Notes under the pieces: generated by a model
The model's input: the letters and a program-made list of their open reading frames with translations, nothing else
Databases searched by the model: none
Told to the model about the DNA's origin: nothing
Assembly: GCF_900129665.1 (NCBI RefSeq)
Contig: NZ_FQWL01000003.1
Span: 372,001-436,000, forward strand
DNA: 64,000 nt
Origin: Flagellimonas flava
GTDB taxonomy: Bacteria > Bacteroidota > Bacteroidia > Flavobacteriales > Flavobacteriaceae
Reading direction: 5' to 3'
Made by a program: the position numbers and the translations under genes
Part shown: piece by piece, positions 10,380 to 34,912 of the stretch
Position numbering within the stretch: position 1 is the stretch's first letter
Layout: every line of letters starts with the position of its first letter

Positions 10380-12506
10380 ATGCAACTCATCCCCTACATC
10401 TTAAAGCACACACAACTTCCTGAGCAAAGTGTGGCCAATACCATCGCCCTTTTAAACGAAGACTGCACCATTCCCTTTATTGCCCGATATCGGAAGGAAA
10501 GAACGGGTAATCTGGATGAGGTTCAGCTTGGGTCCATCGTGCAGTTCAAAACCGCTTTTGAAGCTCTCGAAAAAAGAAAAGCAGCCATTTTAAAGGCCGT
10601 AGGGGAACAAGGTCTATTAACACCGGAATTGCAAACACGGTTCCAAAACTGCGAGGACCTTGCCACTCTGGAGGACCTCTACCTACCTTTCAAAAAGAGT
10701 AAAAAAACAAAGGCGGAGACGGCCCGTAAAAATGGGTTGGAGCCGCTGGCTAAAATCATCATGGCCCAGCGTAGCGATGCCATCGAGTTCATTGCTTCCA
10801 AATATCTAAATAATGCCATTCAAAATGAGGATGAGGCCTTGGAAGGTGCCCGACATATTATTGCTGAGTGGATCAACGAGCGTTCCGATATCCGAAATCA
10901 GTTGCGGAGCCAGCTAGAGCGTTTCGCACTGCTTTCGACCCAGGTCGTCAAAACCAAAAAAGAGGATGAAAAGGCTCAGAAATTCCGAGATTATTTTGAC
11001 TGGAACGAAGCGTTGAATCGTTGTCCCTCCCACCGATTTTTAGCCATTTCAAGAGCCGAAAAAGAAGGCTTCATTCGGGTTAAAGTTGAAATTGACGATG
11101 AGAGGGCCATCGAAAAAATTGAGAGACGGATCATTAAGTCGCATTCCGATTGTGCTTCGCAAATCAAATTGGCCATCGCAGATGCCTACAAAAGACTGTT
11201 ACTGCCATCCCTCTCCAACGAAATCCTAAAAAAGGCCAAGGAAAAAGCAGATACTGAGGCCATTCAAGTGTTTTCAAAGAATTTAAAACAACTTTTACTT
11301 GGAGCTCCCTTAGGTGAAAAACGGATTCTTGCTATTGATCCTGGGTTCAGAACGGGTTGCAAATTGGTCTGTCTGGATGCGCAAGGAGATCTAAAGCACA
11401 ACGAAACCATTTACCCGCATGCTCCTCAAAACGATAGCAAAGGCGCCCTGAAAAAAATAAGTTCCCTTGTAGATGCCTACAAGATTGAAGCGATAGCCAT
11501 TGGCAACGGAACGGCTTCCAGGGAAACCGAACGCTTGGTGAAACGAATTCCATTCAAAATCGATGTGGAGGTTTTTGTGGTGAGTGAGGCTGGGGCATCC
11601 ATCTATTCGGCTTCCAAAATAGCCAGGGAAGAATTTCCCAATTACGATGTTACCGTGAGAGGGGCGGTATCGATTGGGCGAAGATTGGCCGACCCCTTGG
11701 CCGAACTGGTAAAAATAGAGGCCAAATCCATAGGTGTTGGGCAGTATCAGCATGATGTTGACCAAAACAAGCTAAAAACCTCCTTGGATACCGTGGTGGA
11801 AAGTTGTGTGAACTCGGTTGGGGTGAATATCAATACAGCCAGTGTGCCCTTATTGAGCTATGTATCGGGAATTGGTCCGAAGTTAGCGGAAAACATCGTT
11901 GCCTATCGCAATACAAATGGTGCGTTTACCAATCGCGATCAAATTAAAAAAGTGCCTCGTTTGGGTGGAAAAGCTTTTGAGCAGGGTGCTGGATTTTTAC
12001 GCATTAAAGCGGGCGACAATCCCCTGGACGATTCGGCCGTGCATCCAGAAAGCTATGCCTTGGTGAAACAAATGGCCAAGGACAAGCAAGTACCGTTATC
12101 GGACCTGATCCGAAATAAAACCGTTTTGGAAGGTATCGATTTAAAAAAATACTGCACAGATACCATTGGCCTACCAACCTTAAAAGACATTTTGGAGGAA
12201 TTGGAAAAGCCAGGTTTGGACCGAAGGGAGAAGGCTAAAGTGTTCACCTTTGATCAAAACATCAAAGAAATTACCGATTTGCGACAGGGACAGTTATTAC
12301 CAGGCATAGTGAACAACATTACCAATTTCGGTTGCTTTGTGGACATAGGCATCAAGGAAAGCGGCTTGATCCATATTTCCAACCTCGCCAATACCTTCGT
12401 CAAGGATGTGAACGAGCATGTAAGCTTACACCAACAGGTCATTGTTAAGGTTCTCGATGTTGATATTCCGCGAAAACGAATTCAATTGGCTCTTAAGCAA
12501 AGTTGA
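10380..12506 (+). CDS. tex: Tex family RNA-binding transcription accessory protein
   Basis: The 708-residue protein has the Tex architecture: an N-terminal helical domain with CTIPFIARYRKERTGNLDEVQL (~residues 29-50), a YqgF/RNase-H-like domain beginning at ILAIDPGFRTGCK (~318), helix-hairpin-helix repeats (SYVSGIGPKLAENIV, ~492-506), and a C-terminal S1 RNA-binding domain (GQLLPGIVNNITNFGCFVDIG, ~637-657). Tex binds nucleic acids and affects transcription and rRNA or stress responses; its exact role is not settled. The HDAC-like gene begins 7 bp after its stop, so they are likely cotranscribed. Confidence 0.96.
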   Translation: MQLIPYILKHTQLPEQSVANTIALLNEDCTIPFIARYRKERTGNLDEVQLGSIVQFKTAFEALEKRKAAILKAVGEQGLLTPELQTRFQNCEDLATLEDLYLPFKKSKKTKAETARKNGLEPLAKIIMAQRSDAIEFIASKYLNNAIQNEDEALEGARHIIAEWINERSDIRNQLRSQLERFALLSTQVVKTKKEDEKAQKFRDYFDWNEALNRCPSHRFLAISRAEKEGFIRVKVEIDDERAIEKIERRIIKSHSDCASQIKLAIADAYKRLLLPSLSNEILKKAKEKADTEAIQVFSKNLKQLLLGAPLGEKRILAIDPGFRTGCKLVCLDAQGDLKHNETIYPHAPQNDSKGALKKISSLVDAYKIEAIAIGNGTASRETERLVKRIPFKIDVEVFVVSEAGASIYSASKIAREEFPNYDVTVRGAVSIGRRLADPLAELVKIEAKSIGVGQYQHDVDQNKLKTSLDTVVESCVNSVGVNINTASVPLLSYVSGIGPKLAENIVAYRNTNGAFTNRDQIKKVPRLGGKAFEQGAGFLRIKAGDNPLDDSAVHPESYALVKQMAKDKQVPLSDLIRNKTVLEGIDLKKYCTDTIGLPTLKDILEELEKPGLDRREKAKVFTFDQNIKEITDLRQGQLLPGIVNNITNFGCFVDIGIKESGLIHISNLANTFVKDVNEHVSLHQQVIVKVLDVDIPRKRIQLALKQS

Positions 12507-12513
12507 TTATTTG

Positions 12514-13416
12514 ATGCTGAAAATCGCCTATCATCCCATCTTCAAGCATCCACTCCCGGAAGGACATCGGTTCCCGATGGTCAAGTATGAGCTTTTGCCC
12601 CAACAGCTCCTCCATGAAGGTACCTGTACTTCGGAGAACTTTTATACGCCGGATTTCCCCCAAGACGAAGTCATTTTAGCGGCCCATGATAGTATCTATT
12701 ATGAAAATCTGGTTCAACTCAACCTAAAACCCAGTGAGGTTCGTAAAATTGGATTTCCCTTAAGCAAAGAGCTTGTTCAAAGAGAACGGATTATAGCCGA
12801 CGGGACCCTCAAAGGATGCGAATATGCCCTAAAGCATGGCATAGCCATGAATATAGCAGGAGGCACCCATCATGCCTATTCCAACAGGGGCGAGGCCTTT
12901 TGCATGTTGAACGACCAAGCCATCGGTGCACAATATCTAATTGACCATAAGGTGGGCAGTAAAATCTTGATTGTAGATTTAGATGTCCATCAAGGAAATG
13001 GAACCGCTGAAATCTTTCAGGAAAACGAAGCCGTATTTACATTCTCTATGCACGGAAGAGGAAACTATCCCTTCAAAAAAGAAACTTCTGATTTGGATAT
13101 CCCCTTGGAAAAAGGAACTTCGGACAAAGAATACCTATCCATCCTCAAAAAAACATTGCCCCAACTGCTGGAAAAAGTGCAGCCCCAATTTATATTCTAT
13201 TTGTGCGGAGTAGATGTTGTGGCAACGGACAAATTGGGCACCTTGGGCATGAGTTTGGAAGGTTGTAGGGAACGAGATCGCTTTGTGCTTCAGGCCTGTA
13301 GAGACAATAAGATTCCCGTACAATGCAGCATGGGGGGCGGCTATTCCCCCGATATTAAAACCATAGTGGAAGCACATGCCAATACCTTCCGTCTGGCCCA
13401 AGAAATTTATTTTTAA
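12514..13416 (+). CDS. Histone deacetylase family (AcuC/HDAC-like) hydrolase
   Basis: I place the start at the ATG at 12514 (MLKIAYHPIFKHPLPEGHRFPM), 7 bp after tex stops; an upstream in-frame ATG at 12442 would lie inside tex. The resulting 300-residue protein shows the zinc-dependent deacetylase core: GGTHHAYSNRGEAFCMLND (paired active-site histidines), ILIVDLDVHQGNGTAEIF (zinc ligands D and H), then YLCGVDVVATDKLGTLGMS (zinc Asp and substrate loop) and MGGGYS. Bacterial members deacetylate proteins (AcuC), polyamines or other acetylated amines; which applies here is unknown. Cytoplasmic. Confidence 0.9.
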   Translation: MLKIAYHPIFKHPLPEGHRFPMVKYELLPQQLLHEGTCTSENFYTPDFPQDEVILAAHDSIYYENLVQLNLKPSEVRKIGFPLSKELVQRERIIADGTLKGCEYALKHGIAMNIAGGTHHAYSNRGEAFCMLNDQAIGAQYLIDHKVGSKILIVDLDVHQGNGTAEIFQENEAVFTFSMHGRGNYPFKKETSDLDIPLEKGTSDKEYLSILKKTLPQLLEKVQPQFIFYLCGVDVVATDKLGTLGMSLEGCRERDRFVLQACRDNKIPVQCSMGGGYSPDIKTIVEAHANTFRLAQEIYF

Positions 13417-13446
13417 CTTTAATTCACAACCTAACGTTCTTCAGTC

Positions 13447-14286
13447 ATGAGATTATTCTGCTTTTGTTTGCTATTATGCTTCGCCCTACCCCTGCAAGGT
13501 CAAGATCAAATTTATTCCCAACGAAAGAATACTTGGCAAAACTTCACCTATGATATGGGGAATGTTTTTGGGGGTATAGGACACTCGTATTCTAGACCTT
13601 TTCATTGGAATGGAAACGATTGGGCCAACTTCGGTTATCTTTCGGCAGGAACCCTGGCCTTATTCTTTGTGGACGACGAATTTGACCATTGGGTAGGTGG
13701 TTTTGAAGATGATGTTCCCGACCTATTGGTAGACTACGGGAACGAATACGGAAGCCCCGAAAACAATTATATGATTACTGGGGGTGTATACCTTGTGGGC
13801 CTCTTTACGAAAAACGAAAAATTACGTCGCACAGGGGTACTGTTAATATCATCTGCGACCGCTGGAGGTTTTTTACAGCAGGTCAGTAAACGTATTATTG
13901 GACGGGCAAGACCTAGGAGTGGGGACAGCTCGAATGTATACGACCCCTTTCATATTGATAGGGTGCGCAATTACGATTCCTTCCCCTCGGGCCACGCCAT
14001 GTTGGCCTTCACCAATGCCTATGCCATTGCCAAACAGTTCAAGAATCCTTGGGTAAAAGCGGGAATTTACACCGTTGGACTCGTTCCTGGTTTTGCCCGT
14101 ATTGTAGATGGGTACCATTGGATTTCAGATGTGGCTTTTAGCACAGTATTGAGCATTTTCATTGTGGAATCCATAGATAAATATCTTGATTCCAAGTACA
14201 ATGAAAAATATAACAACCAAGCCAAAGCTGTGAGCTGGAACCTAAGTTTTGGACCTGGGACGATGGGGGTGGCTCTTCGGTTCTGA
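13447..14286 (+). CDS. PAP2 superfamily phosphatase, exported or membrane-associated
   Basis: The 279-residue protein begins with a signal peptide (MRLFCFCLLLCFALPLQGQD). The three acid-phosphatase/lipid-phosphatase motifs are present: KRIIGRARPR (~148-157), FPSGHAM (~179-185) and RIVDGYHWISD (~218-228, catalytic His and Asp). Substrates in the family include phosphatidate, phosphatidylglycerophosphate and undecaprenyl pyrophosphate; nothing here selects among them. The ending GVALRF is typical of an outer-membrane-exposed strand, so periplasmic or outer-membrane localisation is possible. It is separated from the HDAC gene by 30 bp. Confidence 0.9.
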   Translation: MRLFCFCLLLCFALPLQGQDQIYSQRKNTWQNFTYDMGNVFGGIGHSYSRPFHWNGNDWANFGYLSAGTLALFFVDDEFDHWVGGFEDDVPDLLVDYGNEYGSPENNYMITGGVYLVGLFTKNEKLRRTGVLLISSATAGGFLQQVSKRIIGRARPRSGDSSNVYDPFHIDRVRNYDSFPSGHAMLAFTNAYAIAKQFKNPWVKAGIYTVGLVPGFARIVDGYHWISDVAFSTVLSIFIVESIDKYLDSKYNEKYNNQAKAVSWNLSFGPGTMGVALRF

Positions 14287-24924: not shown

Positions 24925-24932
24925 TATATTTG
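24925..24932 (+). promoter_or_regulatory. -7 promoter box (TATATTTG) for GNAT gene
   Basis: TATATTTG matches TAnnTTTG in full and lies 18 bp before the ATG at 24951, supporting that start over an upstream TTG at 24930, which falls within the box. Confidence 0.55.
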
Positions 24933-24950
24933 AACATAAAAGGCAAACAG

Positions 24951-25547
24951 ATGGAAACTTGGCTCGAACCACTCGAACTGGAAGGGAAATTAGTGAAGCT
25001 GATTCCTTTGCAAAAGTCACACAAAACAGACCTTTTAAAGGCAGCGACCGATGGGAAATTATGGGAATTATGGTACACATCGGTGCCTTCGGAAACTACC
25101 ATTGACAATTACATAGCAACGGCACTGGAAGATCAAAAAGCTGGCACTGCCCTTCCATTTTGCATTGTAGACAAAAGCACCAATACCATTGTGGGTTCCA
25201 CAAGATATTTGAATGGCGAAGCCCAAAATAGAAGAGTAGAAATCGGGGCAACCTGGTATGCCAAAAGCGTGCAGCGGTCGGGTATCAATACGGAATGCAA
25301 ATATCTTTTGCTGAGTCATGCCTTTGAAGAGCTCAACACCATAGCTGTGGAATTTAAGACCCATTTTTTCAATTTCCCATCGCGGAATGCCATCCTCCGC
25401 TTAGGGGCAAAACAGGAAGGAATTATAAGGAACCATAGGATTGATGCCAATGGAAAGTACCGGGATACCGTCATCTTTTCCATATTGGAAAGTGAGTGGC
25501 CCACAGTAAAACATTCCCTTGAGTATAAAATGAACAAAAGATACTAG
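24951..25547 (+). CDS. GNAT family N-acetyltransferase (RimJ/RimL-like)
   Basis: With the start at 24951 (METWLEPLELEGKLVKLIPL) the protein has 198 residues. The order is GNAT-like: GKLVKLIPLQKSH at the N-terminus, PFCIVDKSTNTIVGSTRYL, VEIGATWYAKSVQRSGINTECKYLLL in two parts (the acetyl-CoA pocket region), NAILRLGAKQEGIIRN and RDTVIFSILESEW. It is a paralogue of the gene at 28294-28887. Substrate is unknown. It ends 4 bp into the convergent glycerate kinase gene. Confidence 0.88.
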   Translation: METWLEPLELEGKLVKLIPLQKSHKTDLLKAATDGKLWELWYTSVPSETTIDNYIATALEDQKAGTALPFCIVDKSTNTIVGSTRYLNGEAQNRRVEIGATWYAKSVQRSGINTECKYLLLSHAFEELNTIAVEFKTHFFNFPSRNAILRLGAKQEGIIRNHRIDANGKYRDTVIFSILESEWPTVKHSLEYKMNKRY

Positions 25548-26680
25548 GCTTGACATTTCTTTAGAAGCTGCGCGAAGTTAAAACTGGCCTGTTCCAAGTT
25601 TTGAAAGCTTTTTGCCTTGGCCTGCTCCAATGAGCCTATTTGATTGAGAATTGAAACTGCATAACTAAGCCCAAGGCGCTGCATTTCTTGTACTGAAATG
25701 TCCACTGAACCACAGAGGGCCGCAACAGGAATATTTCGCTGCTTTGCCATTTTCAACACCCCATTAATAGTTTTCCCAGACAGGGTTTGTCCATCCAATT
25801 GCCCTTCTCCCGTGATTATCCAATCCGCATCCTGTAAAGCTTCTTGGAATTGGGCCATTTCCATAATCAAATCCACTCCTGAGGTAAGTTCTGCATCCAA
25901 AAAAACAACTGCCCCAGCACCCATGCCCCCTGCGGCGCCAGCCCCTGAAATTGACTGCATATCCATATCTGAAAATTCACGAATCACCTCAGCAAAATTG
26001 CGGAGTCCAGTATCCAGAAGTTCCACTTCCTTGGTCGAAGCTCCCTTTTGGGGACCGTATACATAAGCTGCCCCATTTTTCCCATATAGGGGGTTATTCA
26101 CATCGCAAGCCACTTTAATTTTTGCCGTTTTCAACTTGGGCAGAGCCTCAGAACCATCTATCCGAAATACCTTTTCCAAATTCCTCCCGATGGGATTCAG
26201 GGTATTTCCGTCTTTATCTTTAAAGACATAGCCTAAGGCAGATGCCATACCCATCCCGGCATCGTTGGTTGCGCTGCCCCCTATACCCAAAACGATTTCC
26301 TTGGCTCCCTTTTTAAGGGCGTCGGCGATCATCTCACCTGTGCCGACAGTAGTGGTATCCATGCAGTTCAACTCACTTTTGTCCAAAAGCTTATACCCAG
26401 ATGCTTCCGACATTTCAATGTAAGCGATTCCCTTGTGTTTGGAGAGCAAATAGCTGGCTTCGATTTCTCGAAACAATGGGTCTTTCACCTTGATGGTTTC
26501 TTTATTGGCGTCCAAGTATTCCTTGACCACCTCCAAGGTACCATCACCTCCATCTGCTAAAGGTTTTTTAATGATTTCCGATTTGGCGAAGACCATTTTT
26601 AGTCCATTTTCTACGGCCTCACAAAACTGGAAACCGGTTAATGAGCCTTTATATTTATCAGGAGCGACAACAAATTTCAT
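25544..26680 (-). CDS. Glycerate kinase (GlxK/GarK type)
   Basis: The 378-residue enzyme phosphorylates D-glycerate to 2- or 3-phosphoglycerate in the cytoplasm. Family features are MKFVVAPDKYKGSLTGFQFC at the start, KPLADGGDGTLEVV (~40-53), IGGSATNDAGMGMASALGY (~142-160) and ISGAGAAGGMGAGAVVFL (~244-261). It is the last gene of the minus-strand cluster that includes the symporter and the GH63-type hydrolase. Glycerate would be a direct product of hydrolysis of mannosyl- or glucosylglycerate, which gives this kinase a clear place in the pathway. It overlaps the end of the GNAT gene at 24951-25547 by 4 bp. Confidence 0.94.
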   Translation of the reverse strand: MKFVVAPDKYKGSLTGFQFCEAVENGLKMVFAKSEIIKKPLADGGDGTLEVVKEYLDANKETIKVKDPLFREIEASYLLSKHKGIAYIEMSEASGYKLLDKSELNCMDTTTVGTGEMIADALKKGAKEIVLGIGGSATNDAGMGMASALGYVFKDKDGNTLNPIGRNLEKVFRIDGSEALPKLKTAKIKVACDVNNPLYGKNGAAYVYGPQKGASTKEVELLDTGLRNFAEVIREFSDMDMQSISGAGAAGGMGAGAVVFLDAELTSGVDLIMEMAQFQEALQDADWIITGEGQLDGQTLSGKTINGVLKMAKQRNIPVAALCGSVDISVQEMQRLGLSYAVSILNQIGSLEQAKAKSFQNLEQASFNFAQLLKKCQA

Positions 26681-26692
26681 TCGAAAATGGCA

Positions 26693-28297
26693 TTAGCTAA
26701 AAAACTTGGGCAATCCAATGCTAAAGAGTATAATTAGCAGGAAAAAGCCAAGTAAAATATACAATTCCTTTCTTCCAGCGTAATATACCACTTCCAATCC
26801 TTTATTGGCCTTTCTTTTAATGATATGACTAAAAACAACAGCTACAAGTATTGTGACCAAACACCCAATGGCATTCCACCAGAACCAAAAAACTTCCGGA
26901 ACATAAAGCCATAGGTACATATTGAAAAGTACCCCCACCACGATTCCCAAATTGGCACCCAGGGCATGGGTTTTTTTGGTAAGAATTGCCAACACAAAGG
27001 CAGCTAATATAGGACCATAAAAGACGGAACTCACTTTATTGATCACTTCTATGACCGTCCCCTCGATATTTCCGGCAAAGAAGGCGAAGAACAAACAGAC
27101 CAATCCCCAAAATAGGGAAAGCAATCTGGATGTGAACACATACTTTTTATTGTCCATATCAGGTTTGAACCTCTTTACAAAATCCTCCATGGTAACGGCG
27201 GAAAGGGAGTTGACCGTTGAGCTTAAGGACGACATGGCCGCGGACATGATTGCTACGATCAGAATTCCAATAATACCATTAGGCAGGTAGTTGATGATAA
27301 AAACCGGCACCATCAGGTCGGCCTTTTTTCCTTCCAAAGAATCAATGTTTGCATTATATACTGCATCCATAGTTGCTTGAAAACCTGCATCTTGCAACAA
27401 TAACGTTCCAAGCACCAAACCCATGATACAATAGGTAAGGGTCAAGGGGAACCTAAAAAGACCGTTGGCCAACAATAGTTTCTTTATGGTGGGCATGCCT
27501 TTGGCCGAAAGCAATCGCTGTGATTGCGTTTGATCTGTTCCATAATAGGAAGCATACAGGAAAAAACCTCCAATCACCATGGGCCAAAACCCGAATTCAT
27601 CCTGCTTGTCGCCATTATTGAATCCCCATTTACCAAAATCAACGGCGGTAAGCCGTTCTTGATCCACATGAGTAAGGAAATTTTCAAAACCACCCAATTC
27701 GCTAATACCATAGGCAAGGCAAATCACGATCCCCAGGAACAAGATTACCATTTGAATGACATCCCCCCAAATCACGGCTTTCATTCCACCTTGAAAAGAG
27801 TACACCAAAGTAATTACCCCTATGATGAGGATGGAAATCCAAAAATCCACCCCAACGGTGGCCTGTAAAATCAGGGCCATGGTATAGACCATCACACCTG
27901 TTGCCACTGACCTACTCACCTGAAACACAAAACTGATCAGCAAGCGGGAAGAGGCATCGAATCGTTTTTCCAAATATTCATAGACGCTGACAATTCCGGA
28001 TTTATACAAGCTTGGAATAATCGCGATGAGTAAAAAGGCCATGGCCAAGGGCACCCCAAATTCATAGGTAAGCCATTGCAGTCCTCCTCCATCCTTTAAT
28101 CCCACAAAGGCCGGTGCGGAAATAAAACTGATGGCCGATAATTGGGTAGCCATGGTAGAAAGGCTCAAGGGCAACCAACCCATACTTCGTCCCCCTAAAA
28201 AGTAATCCCCGGAGCTTTTGTTTTCCTTGAAGAAATAGCCGATTCCCAAAAATCCAACCAAATAGACCACAATGATGATGTAATCGATGTAATTCAT
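26693..28297 (-). CDS. Sodium:solute symporter (SSS family)
   Basis: The 534-residue inner-membrane protein has about 14 hydrophobic segments. SSS family markers include FFLGGRSMGWLPLSLS-like DYFLGGRSM (~31-39), STMATQLSAISFISAPAF (~47-64), GGMKAVIWGDVIQM (~168-181), TVNSLSAVTMEDF and the Na+-binding serine/threonine region nearby (ASS...). Such proteins co-transport sugars, amino or organic acids with Na+. In this locus the likely cargo is the glycosylglycerate, the released hexose or glycerate, because the hydrolase has no signal peptide and hydrolysis would be cytoplasmic. Its start overlaps the upstream GNAT stop by 4 bp. Confidence 0.93.
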   Translation of the reverse strand: MNYIDYIIIVVYLVGFLGIGYFFKENKSSGDYFLGGRSMGWLPLSLSTMATQLSAISFISAPAFVGLKDGGGLQWLTYEFGVPLAMAFLLIAIIPSLYKSGIVSVYEYLEKRFDASSRLLISFVFQVSRSVATGVMVYTMALILQATVGVDFWISILIIGVITLVYSFQGGMKAVIWGDVIQMVILFLGIVICLAYGISELGGFENFLTHVDQERLTAVDFGKWGFNNGDKQDEFGFWPMVIGGFFLYASYYGTDQTQSQRLLSAKGMPTIKKLLLANGLFRFPLTLTYCIMGLVLGTLLLQDAGFQATMDAVYNANIDSLEGKKADLMVPVFIINYLPNGIIGILIVAIMSAAMSSLSSTVNSLSAVTMEDFVKRFKPDMDNKKYVFTSRLLSLFWGLVCLFFAFFAGNIEGTVIEVINKVSSVFYGPILAAFVLAILTKKTHALGANLGIVVGVLFNMYLWLYVPEVFWFWWNAIGCLVTILVAVVFSHIIKRKANKGLEVVYYAGRKELYILLGFFLLIILFSIGLPKFFS

Positions 28298-28887
28298 AAT
28301 CTATGCTTTAAGTTCTCTTTGACACCGGCGTGCCATTCCGATTTAAGTAATCCCAACAGTACCGCATCCGCCCTTCCAGGACCCTTGATGGAGGGAAAAA
28401 GATTACGTATCTTGCCTTCCCGTGTGCAGCCAACACTTTCCATGGCAGCGATGCTTATTTTGTTCTCGGCATGGGCACCCAGACCTACCCGTTCCACTCC
28501 AAGTTCCTCGAATGCAAACTGAAACATTAGGAACTTACAGTTTTTGTTCAACCCCGTGCCCCGGGATGTTTTGCCATACCAAGTGTACCCCAGTCGAATC
28601 GTGTTAAGGTCTTGCTGGTAATCAAAAAAACGAGTTGAGCCGATAAACTTCCCCTGCATCTTATCATAGACCGCAAAGGGGTATTCCTTATGTGCTTTTC
28701 GCGAGGCAATAGCATCTTCCACATAGTGCTGAAAATCCTCTCCTCCATCTGACCTCCCCAAAAAGTAGGTCCAAATGGCTTTTTCGGAGGCAATTTCTTT
28801 GAGTTCATCCAAATGTTCAGGCATCAAAGGCTCCAATCGGACCCGTTGGTTTTCCAGCACATAGGATTTGTCAAAGTCGATGGGCAT
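28294..28887 (-). CDS. GNAT family N-acetyltransferase inside the sugar-osmolyte operon
   Basis: The 197-residue GNAT protein shows RVRLEPLMPEHLDELKEI, FAVYDKMQGKFIGSTRFFD, LGYTWYGKTSRGTGLN and NKISIAAMESVGCTREGKIRNL in order, like RimJ/RimL-type enzymes. It resembles the GNAT at 24951-25547 throughout, so the two are paralogues. It overlaps the symporter start by 4 bp and lies 9 bp after the GH63-type gene, so it is embedded in the operon. Its link to the pathway is unexplained. Confidence 0.88.
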   Translation of the reverse strand: MPIDFDKSYVLENQRVRLEPLMPEHLDELKEIASEKAIWTYFLGRSDGGEDFQHYVEDAIASRKAHKEYPFAVYDKMQGKFIGSTRFFDYQQDLNTIRLGYTWYGKTSRGTGLNKNCKFLMFQFAFEELGVERVGLGAHAENKISIAAMESVGCTREGKIRNLFPSIKGPGRADAVLLGLLKSEWHAGVKENLKHRL

Positions 28888-28896
28888 ATTTAAATC

Positions 28897-30213
28897 TTAG
28901 GATTCATCTTTTAAAAAATCAATCAGCAAAGCTGCGCTCCAAGAAAAATTATCCCCTCCATAGCCGTTTTTTTCTGCATCGGGGTTGTCTTTTCTGGAAT
29001 CAAAATATTCGAAGAACCCATTATTATCTATGAGCTCCAGAGAGTCATTTTTTACACGTTGCGCCAAGTCTGTAAAACCATATCGCTTAAGCCCGTGATG
29101 TAGCATCCAGTTGAGATTTATCCATACCGGACCTCGCCAATACTTGCGTGGATTGAATCGTTCATGGGTTGGGTCAAATGAGGCACATAGATAGCGCCCT
29201 TCGTCCCCAAATTTATCCATTAAGGTGTTCACCAAAATTTTGGCCTGTTCTTGGGTTGGCGCACCCGCATAAAGTGGTGTGAAAGAAGAGGAGCAGACGT
29301 ACAGAAGCTGTTTGTTGTTTCGCAAATCGAAATGCACATAGGCCCCCAAGTCCTCATTGAACAATTTGCTATTGAGGCCAGCTATACTTTGCGCTTGCTT
29401 TTCCCCTAAAAATGAAATCTTGTCCTCATTCCCCCCCAAACGACCATACAACTTGATCAGGGCTTCATTAGATCGAATGAGCATGGCGTTAAAGAGCGGG
29501 TCCAGCACCAAAAATGGTGAATGTTCCGCGATTTTGGCATCGTCATAGTTGTATTTCTTGGCGATGTCGATAATATATAGGTAATGGTCGTACTCCCTTT
29601 TTGATGGTCTTTGGGCCGGGTCCACATGAGTGGTGTCCCTGCGTTCAAACTCGTATTCCGGGGGATCCATGGTGTCCCAAATATCATCCCATATGGGAGA
29701 ATTATCCGTACCAGACTCCCAGTTGTGGTAGATATATACCAAGCCATTCTTTTCCAAATCACGATGCGTATAGAAGTATTCATGATTGTGGTATACCTTG
29801 TCAATATGTTTTGCGATAAAGTCCAACATCTCATGACTTTCCCCCGAGATTTCCAGAAGTCTTTCCAAAATAAAACCGGTTACCGGAGGTTGGGTCATCC
29901 CCGTAGAGCGATACTTTTTTGAAGCTTGTGGATGCAAATGCGATTGATGAAAATCGGGACCAGGGAAATAGGAATCGCTATCGTTATGGAAAACAATATG
30001 CGGGATAAATCCATTTTCCCATTGGGCATCCATCAAGGTTTCTATTTCCCCCATGGCCTTTTTCAAATCGTAGTGGGCAAATCCCAAGGCTATAAAACCA
30101 GAATCCCATTTCCATTGAAATGGATATAATCCCTCGCTGGGGATGGTAAATCCCCCCTCTTGAAAATTCCTTTCCAAAACCTGAATTGCGTTGTCTATCA
30201 ATTTCTCTTTCAT
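28897..30213 (-). CDS. GH63/MGH1-like glycoside hydrolase (probable mannosyl/glucosylglycerate hydrolase)
   Basis: The start at 30213 (MKEKLIDNAIQVLERNF) gives 438 residues; an upstream ATG would add 13 non-family residues. There is no signal peptide, so it is cytoplasmic. The (alpha/alpha)6-barrel hallmarks are FQWKWDSGFIALGFAHYD (~32-49), HNWESGTDNSPIWDD (~163-177), RKYWRGPVWINLNWMLHHGL (near 363-382) and a C-terminal GFFEYFDS. The two presumed catalytic acids are D170 (ESGTD) and E402 (FFEYF); a spacing of about 230 residues fits characterised mannosyl- and glucosylglycerate hydrolases as I recall them. Presence with a glycerate kinase supports that substrate; trehalase-like specificity remains possible. 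Confidence 0.87.
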   Translation of the reverse strand: MKEKLIDNAIQVLERNFQEGGFTIPSEGLYPFQWKWDSGFIALGFAHYDLKKAMGEIETLMDAQWENGFIPHIVFHNDSDSYFPGPDFHQSHLHPQASKKYRSTGMTQPPVTGFILERLLEISGESHEMLDFIAKHIDKVYHNHEYFYTHRDLEKNGLVYIYHNWESGTDNSPIWDDIWDTMDPPEYEFERRDTTHVDPAQRPSKREYDHYLYIIDIAKKYNYDDAKIAEHSPFLVLDPLFNAMLIRSNEALIKLYGRLGGNEDKISFLGEKQAQSIAGLNSKLFNEDLGAYVHFDLRNNKQLLYVCSSSFTPLYAGAPTQEQAKILVNTLMDKFGDEGRYLCASFDPTHERFNPRKYWRGPVWINLNWMLHHGLKRYGFTDLAQRVKNDSLELIDNNGFFEYFDSRKDNPDAEKNGYGGDNFSWSAALLIDFLKDES

Positions 30214-30224
30214 AAACGTATGAT

Positions 30225-30256
30225 AAAACGTATTGGCGGTCCTTACCGCCAATACG
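30225..30256 (-). terminator. Strong intercistronic hairpin between receptor and hydrolase genes
   Basis: On the minus strand CGTATTGGCGG (30256-30246) pairs perfectly with CCGCCAATACG (30239-30229) around a six-base loop, and TTTT follows. It lies after the TonB-receptor stop and 16 nt before the hydrolase ATG. It may terminate part of the transcripts so that receptor and downstream genes are expressed at different levels, or stabilise the upstream mRNA. Confidence 0.7.
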
Positions 30257-30297
30257 CTACATGAACTAAAAAACTAACTTAAACTATTTTTAGCTGA

Positions 30298-32961
30298 CTA
30301 AAAATTGAACGTTGCCGTGAGGAAGAACCTTCTAGGTAAAATTGGACGTCCAAAGAAAAAATCCTGGTTTCCAGCTTCCCCGGCAACACCCGCCCTGGGG
30401 TTACCTTCGGTAATTCCGTCACTATCAAATAAATTAAATATAGAGAATCCCAATCGTACGGAGTTTTCATCATTGGTATTAAAGGTATACCCTGCTCCCA
30501 AACGGGCAATGGTAATGGCGTCCAGTTCCACATCGTTGATATCCGAAGTGAATTTTTTTCCAGTATGATTTAGAGAGAAAAGGGCGTCAAAAGCTCTATC
30601 GTCATAGTTCAATGCAATGCTTCCCAAAATGTTGGGTTGTCTCGCCAATTCATTTCCTTCGTTTGTAACTGTAGAACCACCATTAACCAAATCTTCTTGA
30701 ATATTTTTCGTGATTTCATGATTCTGATAAGTAGCAGTTCCTTGCAGGCTCAACACATCGGTAAAGCGATAATCCCAAGTGGCTTCAAGTCCAAAAGTGG
30801 AGGTGTTTTGCTCGCTTCGTGTTTGATCCACCAACAATCCACCTACAATGGCCTGGTTGATTCTTACCCTATCTTTTAGACTTACGTAATAGGCCGCAGC
30901 AGAACCTGAAAATTTGGAGGTCCCAAACTTGGCACCGGCTTCAAACTGGATAATGTTTTCTGCATCATAGTTGGATTCCGGTATTCCTGCCACGGGAGCA
31001 AAGCTTCTGATCTGCGGAAAAAAGAACCCTCTAGAAAAGTTGGCGTACAAATTGGTGCTTTCCGACAGTTCGTAAAGTCCCGCCAGGGATACCGCCCAAT
31101 CCGTCGCACTGATTCTGGCCCGGGTAAAGCTGCCATCCGCAAACTGTACATTCCGCAAATCATCGGTCAGCTCAGCATTGTCATAAACAGCGGATTCAAC
31201 CAGTCCCCCATTGCTAAAGTTTCCTTCTGTAGATTCCAATCTAAACCCAACATCAAATCGCCATCTATCAAAAACCATTTCATCCGTGATGTAGAATGCG
31301 GTGCGATTTTGATCTAGGAATCTGTTGGATGTCATTCCCACACGATTGGTGAGGCCTCCTTCAGAAAAAATTACGTTGGCCCCGCCGGCATCGGTATAGC
31401 TCAAGTTCACCAATCTTGGGTTGTTATTGAACTCGGAAAGCACGCGGTACTGGTAGTTAACATCTTCGGCCTCGGTCCTAGACAAGAAGGTACCCAAGGT
31501 GAAGTTGTGGAAGCCATCGTTGGACCTTAAGGTCAAAGACGCTTCTCCAGAATAATCGGTCATGGGTCGTAGTCGGTCCACATGAAGGTTGTCCACTACC
31601 AAATCCGAACCATTGATTTGTGCATCACCACCTCCTTGATAAGTAGCACTAAAACCAAGGTTTCCCGGAGCCACACTTTCTACATAGTTATTCAAAGAAA
31701 TTGGATTTCCGTTGGTTCCATTTCCACCCACGTAAAGGGCAAAATTGTGTTCGTAGTTGGCATAACGCACTTTGGATTTAAATCTGAGGTTATCAGAAAA
31801 ATTATAGGAGAAATCCCCCATGATATAGCCACCTTTGGTAAAGACCCCATCTTCTATAGGGCTTTCATAAACGCCACCCGCAGTCAGAAACGAGGTTTCT
31901 TCCAATTGCCCGGAAAGCAACTGCTGAACGGGTTCTCCATCATTTCCATTAATTCTTTCCCTATCGGCACTCAATGGCAAAGGCAAATAAAATTGAGCCC
32001 TATCATTAATAAATTGGGCATGTACGGTAAAAGTTCCCCGCTCAAAGCGTTTTTTGATATTTCCACGAAACTGCACCCCTCTGGTAGCAAGGCCAGTATC
32101 TAATGGGCCTTGATCTGTTCTTACAAAACCCGTAAAGGCATAAAAGGTATTGGAGTCCTCCCCGCCAAGTCGGCCTCCACTATAGAAGTCTGTTTTCAAA
32201 CGGTCGCCATCTCCCCATTCCACATTAATGGTGTTCCCAGGATTGGTGTCTCCTGTTTTACTGGTATAGTTTATAATTCCCGCAACTGAACCGGCACCAT
32301 ATAGGATAGCGGCACCACCACGTACAAATTCGACACCTTTGAATCCAATATCTGGTCTGGCATACACATCGTGCGCCGACGAGTTTAACCCAAAAGAGCT
32401 TATCAATGGCATACCATCATATTGCAAGGGATTAAACACATATTGTCCTCCCGAAGGGAGACCTCTTACAAATAAATTCGTGGCCGTTTCACCACCACCA
32501 CCTTCTGCGGTAATACCAGGAACGGTTCGTAAGATATCTGCCTGGCTATTGGCGGAGAGCTTGGTAATTTCAGCCATTTTCTTGGAACTGATCGACAGCG
32601 GTGCCTGCTTCTGTGACCTAAAGGTACTGGAGGCCGTAATCACCACTTCATCCAACTGTTGTCCGCTTTCTTGCAAAACGATATCCAATGTTATGGCAGA
32701 GCCATTTAATTCCACAGTATTTTCCACTGCGGTAAATCCCACAAAAGACACTCTTATGGTTTGGCTCCCGGTCAAATTGGTGGTCAATAGAAAATTGCCA
32801 TCAAAGTCCGTAGTGGTCCCCTCTGTGGAACCCATAATCAGCAAATTCGCCCCAAGAATTGGAACTCCGGCTTCATCCTTCACGTTGCCCGTAATCTCGG
32901 TTTGTGCGATGGCCGTCCCAAAACATAAAAGGGTAATTATCGCAAAGACTAATTTTTTCAT
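30298..32961 (-). CDS. TonB-dependent receptor with carboxypeptidase-like N-terminal domain
   Basis: The start at 32961 (MKKLVFAIITLLCFG...) gives 887 residues; an ATG two codons upstream (32967) is equally possible. After the signal peptide comes a CarboxypepD_reg-like domain (EITGNVKDEAGVPILGANLL, ~21-40, to ~100), then the plug (PGITAEGGGGETATNLFVRG, VEFVRGGAAILYGAGSVAGIIN) and a large beta-barrel ending in FFLTATFNF. There is no SusD partner in the locus. It probably imports the glycosylglycerate or related small solute through the outer membrane. It lies upstream in the same direction as the hydrolase, GNAT, symporter and kinase genes and is divergent from the LacI regulator. Confidence 0.95.
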   Translation of the reverse strand: MKKLVFAIITLLCFGTAIAQTEITGNVKDEAGVPILGANLLIMGSTEGTTTDFDGNFLLTTNLTGSQTIRVSFVGFTAVENTVELNGSAITLDIVLQESGQQLDEVVITASSTFRSQKQAPLSISSKKMAEITKLSANSQADILRTVPGITAEGGGGETATNLFVRGLPSGGQYVFNPLQYDGMPLISSFGLNSSAHDVYARPDIGFKGVEFVRGGAAILYGAGSVAGIINYTSKTGDTNPGNTINVEWGDGDRLKTDFYSGGRLGGEDSNTFYAFTGFVRTDQGPLDTGLATRGVQFRGNIKKRFERGTFTVHAQFINDRAQFYLPLPLSADRERINGNDGEPVQQLLSGQLEETSFLTAGGVYESPIEDGVFTKGGYIMGDFSYNFSDNLRFKSKVRYANYEHNFALYVGGNGTNGNPISLNNYVESVAPGNLGFSATYQGGGDAQINGSDLVVDNLHVDRLRPMTDYSGEASLTLRSNDGFHNFTLGTFLSRTEAEDVNYQYRVLSEFNNNPRLVNLSYTDAGGANVIFSEGGLTNRVGMTSNRFLDQNRTAFYITDEMVFDRWRFDVGFRLESTEGNFSNGGLVESAVYDNAELTDDLRNVQFADGSFTRARISATDWAVSLAGLYELSESTNLYANFSRGFFFPQIRSFAPVAGIPESNYDAENIIQFEAGAKFGTSKFSGSAAAYYVSLKDRVRINQAIVGGLLVDQTRSEQNTSTFGLEATWDYRFTDVLSLQGTATYQNHEITKNIQEDLVNGGSTVTNEGNELARQPNILGSIALNYDDRAFDALFSLNHTGKKFTSDINDVELDAITIARLGAGYTFNTNDENSVRLGFSIFNLFDSDGITEGNPRAGVAGEAGNQDFFFGRPILPRRFFLTATFNF

Positions 32962-33021
32962 AATCATTCAGTAATTAGTTAGACGTTTTTGAGTTATGTT
33001 ATGTTTTTGTCAACAACAGGC

Positions 33022-33029
33022 TAAAATTA
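33022..33029 (-). promoter_or_regulatory. Putative -7 box of the receptor operon (TAATTTTA)
   Basis: On the minus strand TAATTTTA differs from TAnnTTTG at the last base. A TTG lies 23 bp upstream of it on the same strand, giving TTG-N23-TAATTTTA. It is 61 bp from the ATG at 32961. The LacI operators lie about 45 bp upstream of it. Confidence 0.4.
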
Positions 33030-33074
33030 TTTGAATACCCTAATGATTTTACCAATTTTTTAGGAATTTGCTAT

Positions 33075-33099
33075 GCAAACGTTTGCGAAAACGTTTGCG
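33075..33099. promoter_or_regulatory. Two overlapping LacI-type operators
   Basis: GCAAACGTTTGC (33075-33086) is a perfect palindrome centred on CG. CGAAAACGTTTGCG (33086-33099) is a second, with one mismatch. Their centres are 12 bp apart, about one helical turn. Both have the AACGTT core typical of LacI/GalR-family sites. They lie between the receptor promoter and the divergent regulator gene, the expected position. Confidence 0.85.
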
Positions 33100-33114
33100 A
33101 ACCACTTTATTTTA

Positions 33115-33122
33115 TTATTTTG
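33115..33122 (+). promoter_or_regulatory. Putative -7 box of the LacI-family regulator gene
   Basis: TTATTTTG matches seven of eight positions of TAnnTTTG. A TTTG at 33094-33097, 17 bp upstream and inside the second operator, could serve as the -33 element. This makes autorepression likely if the promoter call holds. Confidence 0.35.
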
Positions 33123-33133
33123 GTTTTCCTTCG

Positions 33134-34171
33134 ATGTCAATCCACATGAAAAAGAAGCAAAACATCACGTTAAAAGCACTGGCGAAGACGCTAGACCTTT
33201 CCATATCCACGGTATCCCGAGCCCTTAATGACCATCCGGATATTAGCTGGGAAACTAAGGAACGGGTAAAGACCTTGGCCGATAAACACAATTATGTTCC
33301 CAATCTGTTCGCTAGTGGATTTAGAAGTCATAGGACACATATACTTGGAGTCATAGTTCCCAACATCTCCCATTACTTTACCACCACTATTTTAAAAGGG
33401 GTTTTGGAGGAAGGTGAGAATTTGGGCTATCGGGTAATTATCTCCGAATCCAAGAACGACGAAAAAAAGCAGTCAGAGATGCTACGGACCATGGTGCAGT
33501 TTGGGGTGGATGGGGTGTTGATGGCGTTGTCCCGGAAAACCAAATCCGTGGATGAAATTCTGAAGGTGATGAATCGTTTGCCATTGGTTATGTTCGATAA
33601 AGTTTCCGGGAAAATTCCCTGTACCGAGGTGGTTATCAATGAGGAGGAGGCCGCCTACAATGCGGTGGAGCATTTGATCAATACCGGAAAAAGGCGCATT
33701 GCCATTATCAAAGAAACCGAAGGGTCCTATAATTCTGAAAAGCGATATCAAGGGTACCTAAGAGCTCTAAAAGAGTACCATATTCCCGTCGACGAGAAAA
33801 TTGTGCTCAGCACAGAGGACATCTCATTGGCAAAAGGCCGGATGATGGCCAATATTCTTCTCAGTCTCAAAACGCGACCTGATGCCATCTTTGCCATCAC
33901 GGATAGTGCCGCCATTGGGGTGATCAAGGCCTTGAATAAATTCAAGGTAAAGATTCCGGAAGAAATTGCGGTGGTTGGTTTTAGCAATTCGGCCAGCTCC
34001 ACGATTATCAATCCGTCCCTCACTACAGTAGATCAACCCGGAAACAAAATCGGGAGGACTGCAGTCAAATATCTTATCGACGAAATTGAAAATCCCAAGG
34101 AAGACATGTTCTCCAAAACCATCGAGATCAAAACCAACCTTATTGTTCGCGATTCATCCTTTAAAGCGTAA
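33134..34171 (+). CDS. LacI family transcriptional regulator
   Basis: The start is set at the ATG at 33134 (or 33146); an upstream ATG at 33068 would run through the operators. The protein then has 345 residues. A LacI helix-turn-helix opens it: NITLKALAKTLDLSISTVSRALNDHP. It is followed by the periplasmic-binding-protein-like effector domain (THILGVIVPNISHYFTTTI, IPEEIAVVGFSNS, TTVDQPGNKIG). It is divergent from the TonB receptor and the hydrolase/symporter/kinase operon and likely regulates it, probably in response to the substrate or an intermediate. Confidence 0.94.
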   Translation: MSIHMKKKQNITLKALAKTLDLSISTVSRALNDHPDISWETKERVKTLADKHNYVPNLFASGFRSHRTHILGVIVPNISHYFTTTILKGVLEEGENLGYRVIISESKNDEKKQSEMLRTMVQFGVDGVLMALSRKTKSVDEILKVMNRLPLVMFDKVSGKIPCTEVVINEEEAAYNAVEHLINTGKRRIAIIKETEGSYNSEKRYQGYLRALKEYHIPVDEKIVLSTEDISLAKGRMMANILLSLKTRPDAIFAITDSAAIGVIKALNKFKVKIPEEIAVVGFSNSASSTIINPSLTTVDQPGNKIGRTAVKYLIDEIENPKEDMFSKTIEIKTNLIVRDSSFKA

Positions 34172-34210: not shown

Positions 34211-34912
34211 ATGAAAAAAACACTTATTCTATTATTATTTACGGCATTTACTATGACAACATATTCGCAATCCAAGAATTTTCTGGATATCCCCTATCTG
34301 GAAACATCAGCACGGGTAGACACCTTGGTGTCCCCGGATAAAATCTATTTGAACATCACCATCCAGGAAAAAGATTCCAAAGGGAAGAAATCCGTGGAAG
34401 AGCAAGAAAACAAGATGGCCAACAGTCTAAAGAATTTAGGTGTTGATTTGGAAAAGCAGTTGGTCATCAAAGACTTGAGCAGCAACTTTAAAAAGTATTT
34501 TCTTCGCCAAAAAGATGTGTTGAAAAGTAAACAATACTCGCTTTTGGTGTATTCCGGAAAAGAGGCCGGTGAAGTGTTGATGGCTTTGGAAAAATTGGGA
34601 ATAGCCAACACTTATTTGGAAAAAACAGAGTATTCCAAAATGGACGCCTTGGAATTGGAGCTGAAAACAAAAGCGGTGGCCAAGGCCAAAAAGAAAGCGG
34701 AGGCACTTACCTCTCCGTTAGGCCAAAAGGTTGGGGCGGCCATTCACATTTTGGATACCTCAACCCCCTATTACCCAAGATACAACCAAGCTCCTAGAAT
34801 GGAAATGAAGGCCATGTCTATGGATATGGCTGAGGCCGAGCCTTTGGATATTGGTTTTGAGAAAATAAAAGTGGAGACCTCTGTCAATATTAAGTTTGAA
34901 TTGTCCAAATAA
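34211..34912 (+). CDS. SIMPL domain (DUF541) exported protein
   Basis: The 233 residues start with a signal peptide (MKKTLILLLFTAFTMTTYSQ) and then the SIMPL/DUF541 pattern: YLETSARVDTLVSPDKIYL, ENKMANSLKNLGVD, VAKAKKKAEALTSPLGQKVG, ending with VETSVNIKFEL. Family members are periplasmic or outer-membrane associated and of unclear function. It follows the LacI gene by 39 bp on the same strand; cotranscription is possible but unrelated in function. Confidence 0.9.
   Translation: MKKTLILLLFTAFTMTTYSQSKNFLDIPYLETSARVDTLVSPDKIYLNITIQEKDSKGKKSVEEQENKMANSLKNLGVDLEKQLVIKDLSSNFKKYFLRQKDVLKSKQYSLLVYSGKEAGEVLMALEKLGIANTYLEKTEYSKMDALELELKTKAVAKAKKKAEALTSPLGQKVGAAIHILDTSTPYYPRYNQAPRMEMKAMSMDMAEAEPLDIGFEKIKVETSVNIKFELSK

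Follow-up and report, generated by a model that had tools for sequence, protein, structure and literature searches.

Positions 25544-34171 of a 64,000-nucleotide stretch of the Flagellimonas flava genome (contig NZ_FQWL01000003.1; the whole stretch hereafter called the window) carry a locus of six predicted genes that very probably serves the inducible scavenging of a glycosylglycerate. The locus is real and conserved and appears regulated, and what it scavenges is, judging from its sequences, most likely mannosylglycerate (digeneaside), with glucosylglycerate probably being accepted, too. All six genes are open frames, and a gene for a LacI-family regulator is divergent from a tightly packed minus-strand run of five, encoding, in this order, a TonB-dependent receptor, a hydrolase of family GH63, an acetyltransferase of the GNAT family, a sodium:solute symporter (SSS) and a glycerate kinase (Table 1). 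Receptor and GH63 genes are 45 bp apart, GH63 and GNAT genes 9 bp, and SSS and kinase genes 12 bp, with the GNAT and SSS genes overlapping by 4 bp. An initial annotation, made from the DNA alone, had described this arrangement and had read it as a locus for the catabolism of mannosyl- or glucosylglycerate; open frames and Pfam matches agree with the arrangement, and predicted active-site residues, modelled fold, the conserved gene set and the lack of a PF09488 (mannosyl-3-phosphoglycerate synthase family) match in the organism's own genome all speak in favour of the reading.

According to the pathway proposed here, the LacI regulator would bind a tandem operator, the conservation of which is observed directly, and repress the locus as long as the solute is lacking. 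The TonB-dependent receptor and the sodium symporter would import the intact anionic solute, and the cytoplasmic GH63 enzyme, with an activity predicted from residues and fold, would cleave its α-glycosidic bond with inversion to yield hexose and D-glycerate, D183 acting as the acid and E415 as the base. Glycerate would be phosphorylated by the kinase and enter lower glycolysis, while mannose would need phosphorylation and isomerisation by enzymes from outside the locus, for which the genome offers a ManA-like gene (C7:4694-5656; 50% identical to that of locus L056) and two ROK genes over the cut-off, likewise elsewhere. The GNAT protein would be accessory to the pathway.

The hydrolase matches PF22422 (MGH1-like_GH) over the entire model (positions 1-356 of 356) at 310 bits with a cut-off of 27, family matches being judged throughout against the curated cut-offs of Pfam and the cut-offs of NCBIfam. 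In a phmmer comparison with solved structures, the mannosylglycerate hydrolase (MgH) of Thermus thermophilus (2z07/4wva) scores best at 320 bits, followed by the glucosylglycerate hydrolase of M. hassiacum (MhGgH) at 218-226 bits, with YgjK, other GH63 members and trehalase each remaining below 35 bits. Residues were compared at the 19 positions that are named in PMC6608630 as contacting the substrate or its analogues in MhGgH. The window hydrolase is identical to MhGgH at 18 of these positions, the exception being Gln434, which is Phe, and identical to Thermus MgH at all 19, Phe at 434 included. Among relatives of the locus (a scan of species genomes gave 149, of which the best 80 underlie all locus counts), the 19 positions are invariant in 80/80, and the predicted catalytic acid D183 and base E415 are likewise kept in 80/80. 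These two are the same residues as the D170 and E402 put forward in the initial annotation, the longest frame being 13 codons longer. The glycerate-binding Tyr36, Trp40, Tyr88, Arg216 and Tyr375 (MhGgH numbers) are identical in the window hydrolase and all 80 relatives. Outside the family, nine of 13 GH63 proteins equal the window enzyme at all 19 positions, and four (L125, L126, L127, L130) differ at one or two.

Two proteins from the same genome served as controls, a YgjK-like protein (L082; PF21152 and PF22422) and a trehalase (L083; PF01204, 475 bits). L082 retains both acids and carries F, D, A, H, K and D at Tyr36, His78, Tyr88, Phe89, Gln115 and Arg216, respectively; L083 is changed at Tyr36, Trp40, His78, Phe89, Arg216, Tyr222 and Tyr375, with Asp182 lying opposite a gap. 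Of the five glycerate-binding residues, three are thus changed in L082 (Tyr36, Tyr88, Arg216) and four in L083 (Tyr36, Trp40, Arg216, Tyr375). An AlphaFold model of the window hydrolase, computed from a 12-row alignment (mean predicted local distance difference test score, pLDDT, 77.6; predicted template-modelling score, pTM, 0.85), has Thermus MgH (4wvc) as its nearest fold (E 2.8e-25, TMq 0.81) and the MhGgH entries next (TMq 0.80-0.83), with YgjK (3w7x, E 2.7e-11) and trehalase (5z6h, E 8.1e-9) being far weaker. By residues and modelled fold, the window enzyme is predicted to be a glycosylglycerate hydrolase, as the initial annotation had it; the predicted active site does not tell a mannosyl from a glucosyl preference. 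In a GH63 tree built by a quick method, the branches of Thermus MgH, MhGgH and the outgroup are very long, and their placement was not used.

The gene set around the hydrolase is conserved. Clustering of proteins from the 80 loci recovers GH63 in 80, the kinase in 77, the symporter in 76, LacI (upstream, on the opposite strand) in 68 and the receptor in 68; direct BLAST gives 77, 77, 69 and 68 for kinase, symporter, LacI and receptor. All five genes are present in 63/80 loci by clustering and in 64/80 by BLAST, which answers in the affirmative the suggestion of the initial annotation that the same set be sought in other flavobacterial genomes. Where GH63 is preceded by more than 5 kb and followed by more than 4.5 kb of sequence (69 loci), the counts are 63 for LacI, 61 for the receptor, 67 for the symporter and 68 for the kinase. 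LacI and receptor are both missing in nine loci, three of which begin less than 800 bases from GH63 at contig ends. GH63 itself is sparsely distributed, occurring in 43/299 genomes and 39/236 genera of a family sample (E <= 1e-60), in 13/71 genomes of the window's genus, and in 19/395 genomes of a phylum sample (E <= 1e-40), 12 of them outside the family. From 11 of these 12 outside genomes, 13 GH63 stretches of 10-20 kb were taken as an outgroup; by BLAST, the symporter adjoins GH63 in three of them and the receptor in two. In locus L124 (genome G610), which belongs to a distant family, the genes for receptor, GH63, GNAT and symporter follow one another as in the window and are accompanied by one for a nucleoside hydrolase, no glycerate kinase having been found nearby. 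As to single genes, the symporter gene is broken in frame in L065 (Frigoriflavimonas) and L072 (Aureicoccus), by decay or sequencing error, and a gene of the S66 LD-carboxypeptidase family (by Pfam, for L007) lies between symporter and kinase in L005, L007, L013, L024 and L029.

Regulation of the locus is indicated by the intergenic region between LacI and receptor, in which a candidate operator consists of two adjoining halves, GCAAACGTTTGC (33075-33086) and GAAAACGTTTGC (33087-33098). The stretches between LacI and receptor (or between LacI and GH63) in 68 loci add up to 16.3 kb and contain 50 copies of GCAAACGTTTGC, against four copies in the remaining 1.56 Mb of the 80 loci, a count which, the loci being related, does not translate into a probability. 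Palindromes that contain AACGTT and span 10 bases or more are present in 55/69 stretches (the window included) and absent from 14. The operator core resembles the operators of many LacI-family proteins. In its own genome, GCAAACGTTTGC has one other perfect copy (C6:76671), besides 11 one-mismatch sites in addition to the tandem partner. Since the second perfect copy falls within a reading frame and was set aside, the regulator looks local in scope, as far as its predicted sites go. Its best NCBIfam match is RbsR, below the RbsR cut-off.

With the SusC/RagA model TIGR04056 the receptor reaches 94 bits, far under the cut-off of 368, and no SusD partner was recognised by eye among the open reading frames around the locus (no profile scan was made), in agreement with the earlier statement that, lacking SusD, this is not a classical polysaccharide locus. 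The symporter belongs to the SSS superfamily (TIGR00813, 254 bits, cut-off 184), and its nearest solved structures are the Na/I symporter (194 bits), SMVT (174), SMCT1 (165) and SGLT1 (138). It stands nearer to the iodide, vitamin and monocarboxylate carriers of SLC5 than to the sugar carriers, which fits an anionic sugar acid and proves nothing. By BLAST, identity to relatives falls into two classes for the receptor (67-94% or 44-49%) and for the symporter (79-93% or 51-59%), and these classes mix between loci, e.g., in L014 and L019, as if transport parts had been exchanged while the enzyme was retained. The initial annotation had noted no signal peptide on the hydrolase and had placed its action in the cytoplasm, and none is seen at its N-terminus by eye (no prediction program was applied).

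As to the sugar, the evidence favours a mannosyl over a glucosyl substrate. A mannose-6-phosphate isomerase gene follows the kinase on the same strand, at -19 to +29 bp, in 9/80 loci, namely in Aquimarina, Algibacter, Winogradskyella, Spongiivirga, Lutibacter and Lacinutrix; four of the nine (L036, L056, L060, L069) are assigned to the type I isomerases by Pfam, the rest being homologues. This isomerase is required for the use of mannose, not of glucose. Furthermore, in three loci from outside the family (L128, L131, L132), GH63 is head to head with a mannosyl-3-phosphoglycerate synthase (MpgS; PF09488 at 522, 522 and 518 bits), followed by an HAD phosphatase (by Pfam for L128 only). Some of these outgroup genomes have two GH63 genes (L128 and L133, both in G370; L132 and L129, both in G422), and in G370 and G422 the synthase is seen by one GH63 copy only. 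In L128, a gene for an RtcB RNA ligase with an intein-splicing domain (10690-13656; G370) is next to GH63; its counterparts in L131 and L132 start alike and are 480 amino acids long.

That the same pathway has glucosylglycerate, as made by marine cyanobacteria, for its main natural substrate is possible but rather unlikely; being a variant inside the proposed pathway, its odds overlap with those of the latter. MhGgH prefers glucosylglycerate and Thermus MgH is stated to act on both solutes with similar efficiency (PMC6608630), the contact residues do not discriminate between mannosyl and glucosyl, and glucosylglycerate is a main solute in Prochlorococcus (PMC11631117). On the other side, the accessory gene for the sugar is the mannose-6-phosphate isomerase of the nine loci, no glucokinase was recognised among the neighbour families present in at least five loci (mostly by eye, from the first 60 residues), and the outgroup neighbour of GH63 is a mannosyl synthase. 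Of the two solutes that the initial annotation had named, mannosylglycerate is thus strengthened by isomerase and synthase neighbours, and glucosylglycerate is less supported. Mannosylglycerate is the digeneaside (PMC8490865) of red algae, where it occurs mainly in the Ceramiales, and is also found in thermophiles (PMC8490865, PMC8523428).

That the locus serves to recycle glycosylglycerate made by the cell itself, as happens in mycobacteria, is very improbable. Such a role could draw on the synthase that is head to head with GH63 in the three outside genomes and on the six loci that have no LacI and receptor despite the presence of upstream sequence. Against it, receptor, symporter and divergent LacI indicate an external substrate, and the organism's own genome has neither a PF09488 match nor a glucosyl synthase (GpgS) over cut-off, the best score with model NF010496 being 64 bits with a cut-off of 262 (further synthase families were not searched). 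Together, these two results make it improbable that the organism produces the solute, as far as its sequence tells, and favour uptake over recycling. Least probable is that the hydrolase acts on another small α-glycoside, such as trehalose or glucosylglycerol: the family is near the GH37 trehalases and YgjK, the Pfam Trehalase model matches the window hydrolase at 56.5 bits and PF22422 takes in the genome's own YgjK-like protein and trehalase, but the window enzyme, its 80 relatives and Thermus MgH have kept the glycerate contacts, some of which both controls lack, a separate trehalase (L083) is present in the genome, and MhGgH was inactive on glucosylglycerol and on glucosylglycolate (PMC6608630).

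The glycerate kinase is a frequent companion of the hydrolase that also occurs without it. Its family identity is clear (TIGR00045, 436 bits, cut-off 168), with scores below the equivalog cut-offs for glycerate 2-kinase and 3-kinase, and its nearest solved structure is 3cwc (284 bits). The kinase is present in 43/43 family genomes with GH63 and in 92/256 without (Fisher 1.8e-17, uncorrected for relatedness), and in 37/43 it lies within 5 kb of GH63 on the same strand. In the window's genus, 58 genomes are without GH63, and the site was compared in 18 of them, a non-random choice of better-scoring hits with enough flanking contig. In 18/18 the kinase is beside the counterpart of the gene at 34211-34912, at a distance of 94-185 bp as measured by alignment, with no module between. 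The kinase tree, read here as a proxy for the history of the genomes (although the kinase itself may have been exchanged), places genus members with and without the module in one clade (31 rows, 100/99), and the module label switches seven times, at least six of these on well-supported branches; L001, with the module, and L148, without it, have near-identical kinases. In the quick tree, the GH63 proteins of L013, L015, L024 and L029 group with Aureicoccus, Spongiivirga and Dokdonia, not with other genus members, and the kinases of the same four loci fall inside the genus. The module thus seems to have been present at some times and absent at others, next to a kinase that stayed in place, whether through loss alone or through exchange. 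More tentatively, and rather less likely than not, the site between the kinase and the 34211-34912 gene could be a fixed socket, into and from which the genus repeatedly inserts and removes a regulated glycosylglycerate module by recombination in the conserved flanks, with the resident kinase as a permanent receiver and different GH63 lineages as occupants.

Several observations weigh against the scavenging of a glycosylglycerate. All support is computational, and the genome counts behind the co-occurrences are not phylogenetically independent. With the glucosylglycerate-hydrolase equivalog of NCBIfam (NF047898), the hydrolase reaches 326 bits, the cut-off being 550, and it is accordingly not assigned to that equivalog. 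PF22422 is non-discriminating, as it is also passed by L082 (221 bits) and L083 (95 bits) of the same genome; membership was consequently dropped as proof of the substrate, and with the family name being weak, it is the residues that carry the case. Phe at MhGgH position 434 was dropped as a mark of mannosylglycerate specificity, both in-genome controls also having Phe. The trehalase retains Tyr88 and Gln115 in the alignment, and the alignment of Arg216 is uncertain for such distant paralogues, BLAST leaving a gap there for L082. Beyond the enzyme, 71/80 loci have no isomerase (ManA) beside the kinase, LacI and receptor are missing by BLAST despite upstream sequence in L013, L015, L024, L029, L060 and L072, and none of the 13 outgroup GH63 stretches has a kinase by BLAST. 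Finally, as the kinase is resident in the genus, also where the module is lacking, its co-occurrence with GH63 is partly shared ancestry and its presence is weak evidence for the pathway; as a proof of the latter, co-occurrence is weakened by the 18/18 module-free genomes that keep the kinase. Of the glycerate kinase in the initial annotation, the family identity therefore stands and the value as pathway evidence is diminished.

The GNAT protein, which had been left unexplained, can be given a tentative place. It follows GH63 directly in 23/80 loci and in the distant L124, where the same slot is filled in keeping with an accessory role. In a quick tree, from which free-standing GNATs were left out, 25 locus GNATs (including those of the window and L124) form one group versus 11 GNAT2 proteins, GNAT2 being a second GNAT (24930-25547), which converges on the kinase gene and shares 32% identity with the GNAT of the locus. 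At E <= 1e-30, 41/299 family genomes have a match, five of them beside GH63 (positions compared by eye), and the neighbours of four relatives outside the locus look unrelated, again by eye; a PHROGs scan gave weak acetyltransferase matches only. From its sequence relatives, the protein is read as an accessory acetyltransferase of a wider family. A role as a core enzyme is unlikely, given its place after GH63 in just 23/80 loci and the unrelated contexts of the four relatives outside. Also set aside were a recent duplication of GNAT2, in view of the 32% identity and the separate groups, and a toxin-antitoxin pair, an idea prompted by 1yre (PA3270), one of the nearest solved GNATs, and one to which the 9 bp gap and 4 bp overlap leave no space for a partner gene. 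GNAT2 belongs to the genus backbone and flanks the kinase in 17/18 module-free genomes.

Two gene starts deserve comment. The longest LacI frame, from a TTG at 33068, overlaps the operator, and an ATG at 33134 or 33146 is the likelier start; the longest GH63 frame also begins at a TTG, the likelier start being an ATG 13 codons further in, at 30213. Rfam at gathering thresholds found nothing but tRNA in the whole window. A promoter scan gave 22 sites versus 17.6 in shuffles and a terminator scan 16 versus 9.3, and none of these were used.

Table 1. Features of the predicted glycosylglycerate locus (positions in the window)
Feature	Position	Strand	Basis
LacI-family repressor	33146..34171	+	PF00356, PF13377 above Pfam cut-offs
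Candidate tandem LacI-type operator, GCAAACGTTTGC + GAAAACGTTTGC	33075..33098	.	LacI/receptor intergenic, conserved
TonB-dependent outer-membrane receptor, carboxypeptidase-like N-terminal domain	30298..32967	-	PF00593, PF07715, PF13715
GH63 glycosylglycerate hydrolase (predicted)	28897..30252	-	PF22422 310 bits, phmmer, residues, AlphaFold
GNAT acetyltransferase, RimJ/RimL type, accessory	28294..28887	-	PF13302 (Acetyltransf_3) 70 bits
Sodium:solute symporter SSS/SLC5, proposed inner-membrane importer	26693..28297	-	SSF 168 bits, TIGR00813
Glycerate kinase	25544..26680	-	Gly_kinase 455 bits, TIGR00045

In outline, the idea of flavobacterial digeneaside degradation is already in print, since it is mentioned in PMC8072126, according to which Maribacter dokdonensis has homologues of the digeneaside-degradation genes known from Zobellia (attributed to Barbeyron 2016), and in PMC6298971, where digeneaside is among the possible substrates of flavobacterial loci. 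No experimental characterisation of the locus was found in the literature searched, which was searched by title and abstract, with subscription papers largely outside its scope, and in which little was found on marine Bacteroidota feeding on small charged solutes as compared to polysaccharides. As far as we have seen, what is new here is a residue comparison controlled by two proteins of the same genome, the conservation of a tandem operator, the link between isomerase and mannose, and the coming and going of a module beside a resident kinase. The locus supplies one candidate for each pathway step, a candidate operator and a marker gene set for metagenomes, as well as two natural comparisons, one between close genomes that have or lack the module, the other between loci that have or lack mannose-6-phosphate isomerase.

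Among known systems, Thermus thermophilus MgH (2z07, 4wva-4wvc) is of the same family and fold, with 42% identity to the window hydrolase over 407 aligned positions and all 19 contacts shared. M. hassiacum GgH (5ohc and related entries) shares 33% over 415 positions, 18 contacts and both acids, and differs by its Gln434; it is described as mobilising endogenous glucosylglycerate following nitrogen starvation (PMC6608630), whereas the window locus is read as scavenging. The digeneaside genes of Zobellia galactanivorans and Maribacter dokdonensis 62-1 are reported for close relatives of the window organism (PMC8072126). The window-type gene set was found in five loci from further species of Zobellia as well as in loci of Maribacter, Z. 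galactanivorans itself being outside the comparison. The mng system of E. coli acts on 2-O-mannosyl-D-glycerate and resembles the window locus in combining regulated mannosylglycerate uptake with hydrolysis. It differs, however, in its uptake by a phosphotransferase system (PTS) and a GH38 enzyme for the phosphorylated substrate, in place of which the window locus has a TonB receptor with an SSS symporter and a GH63 hydrolase.

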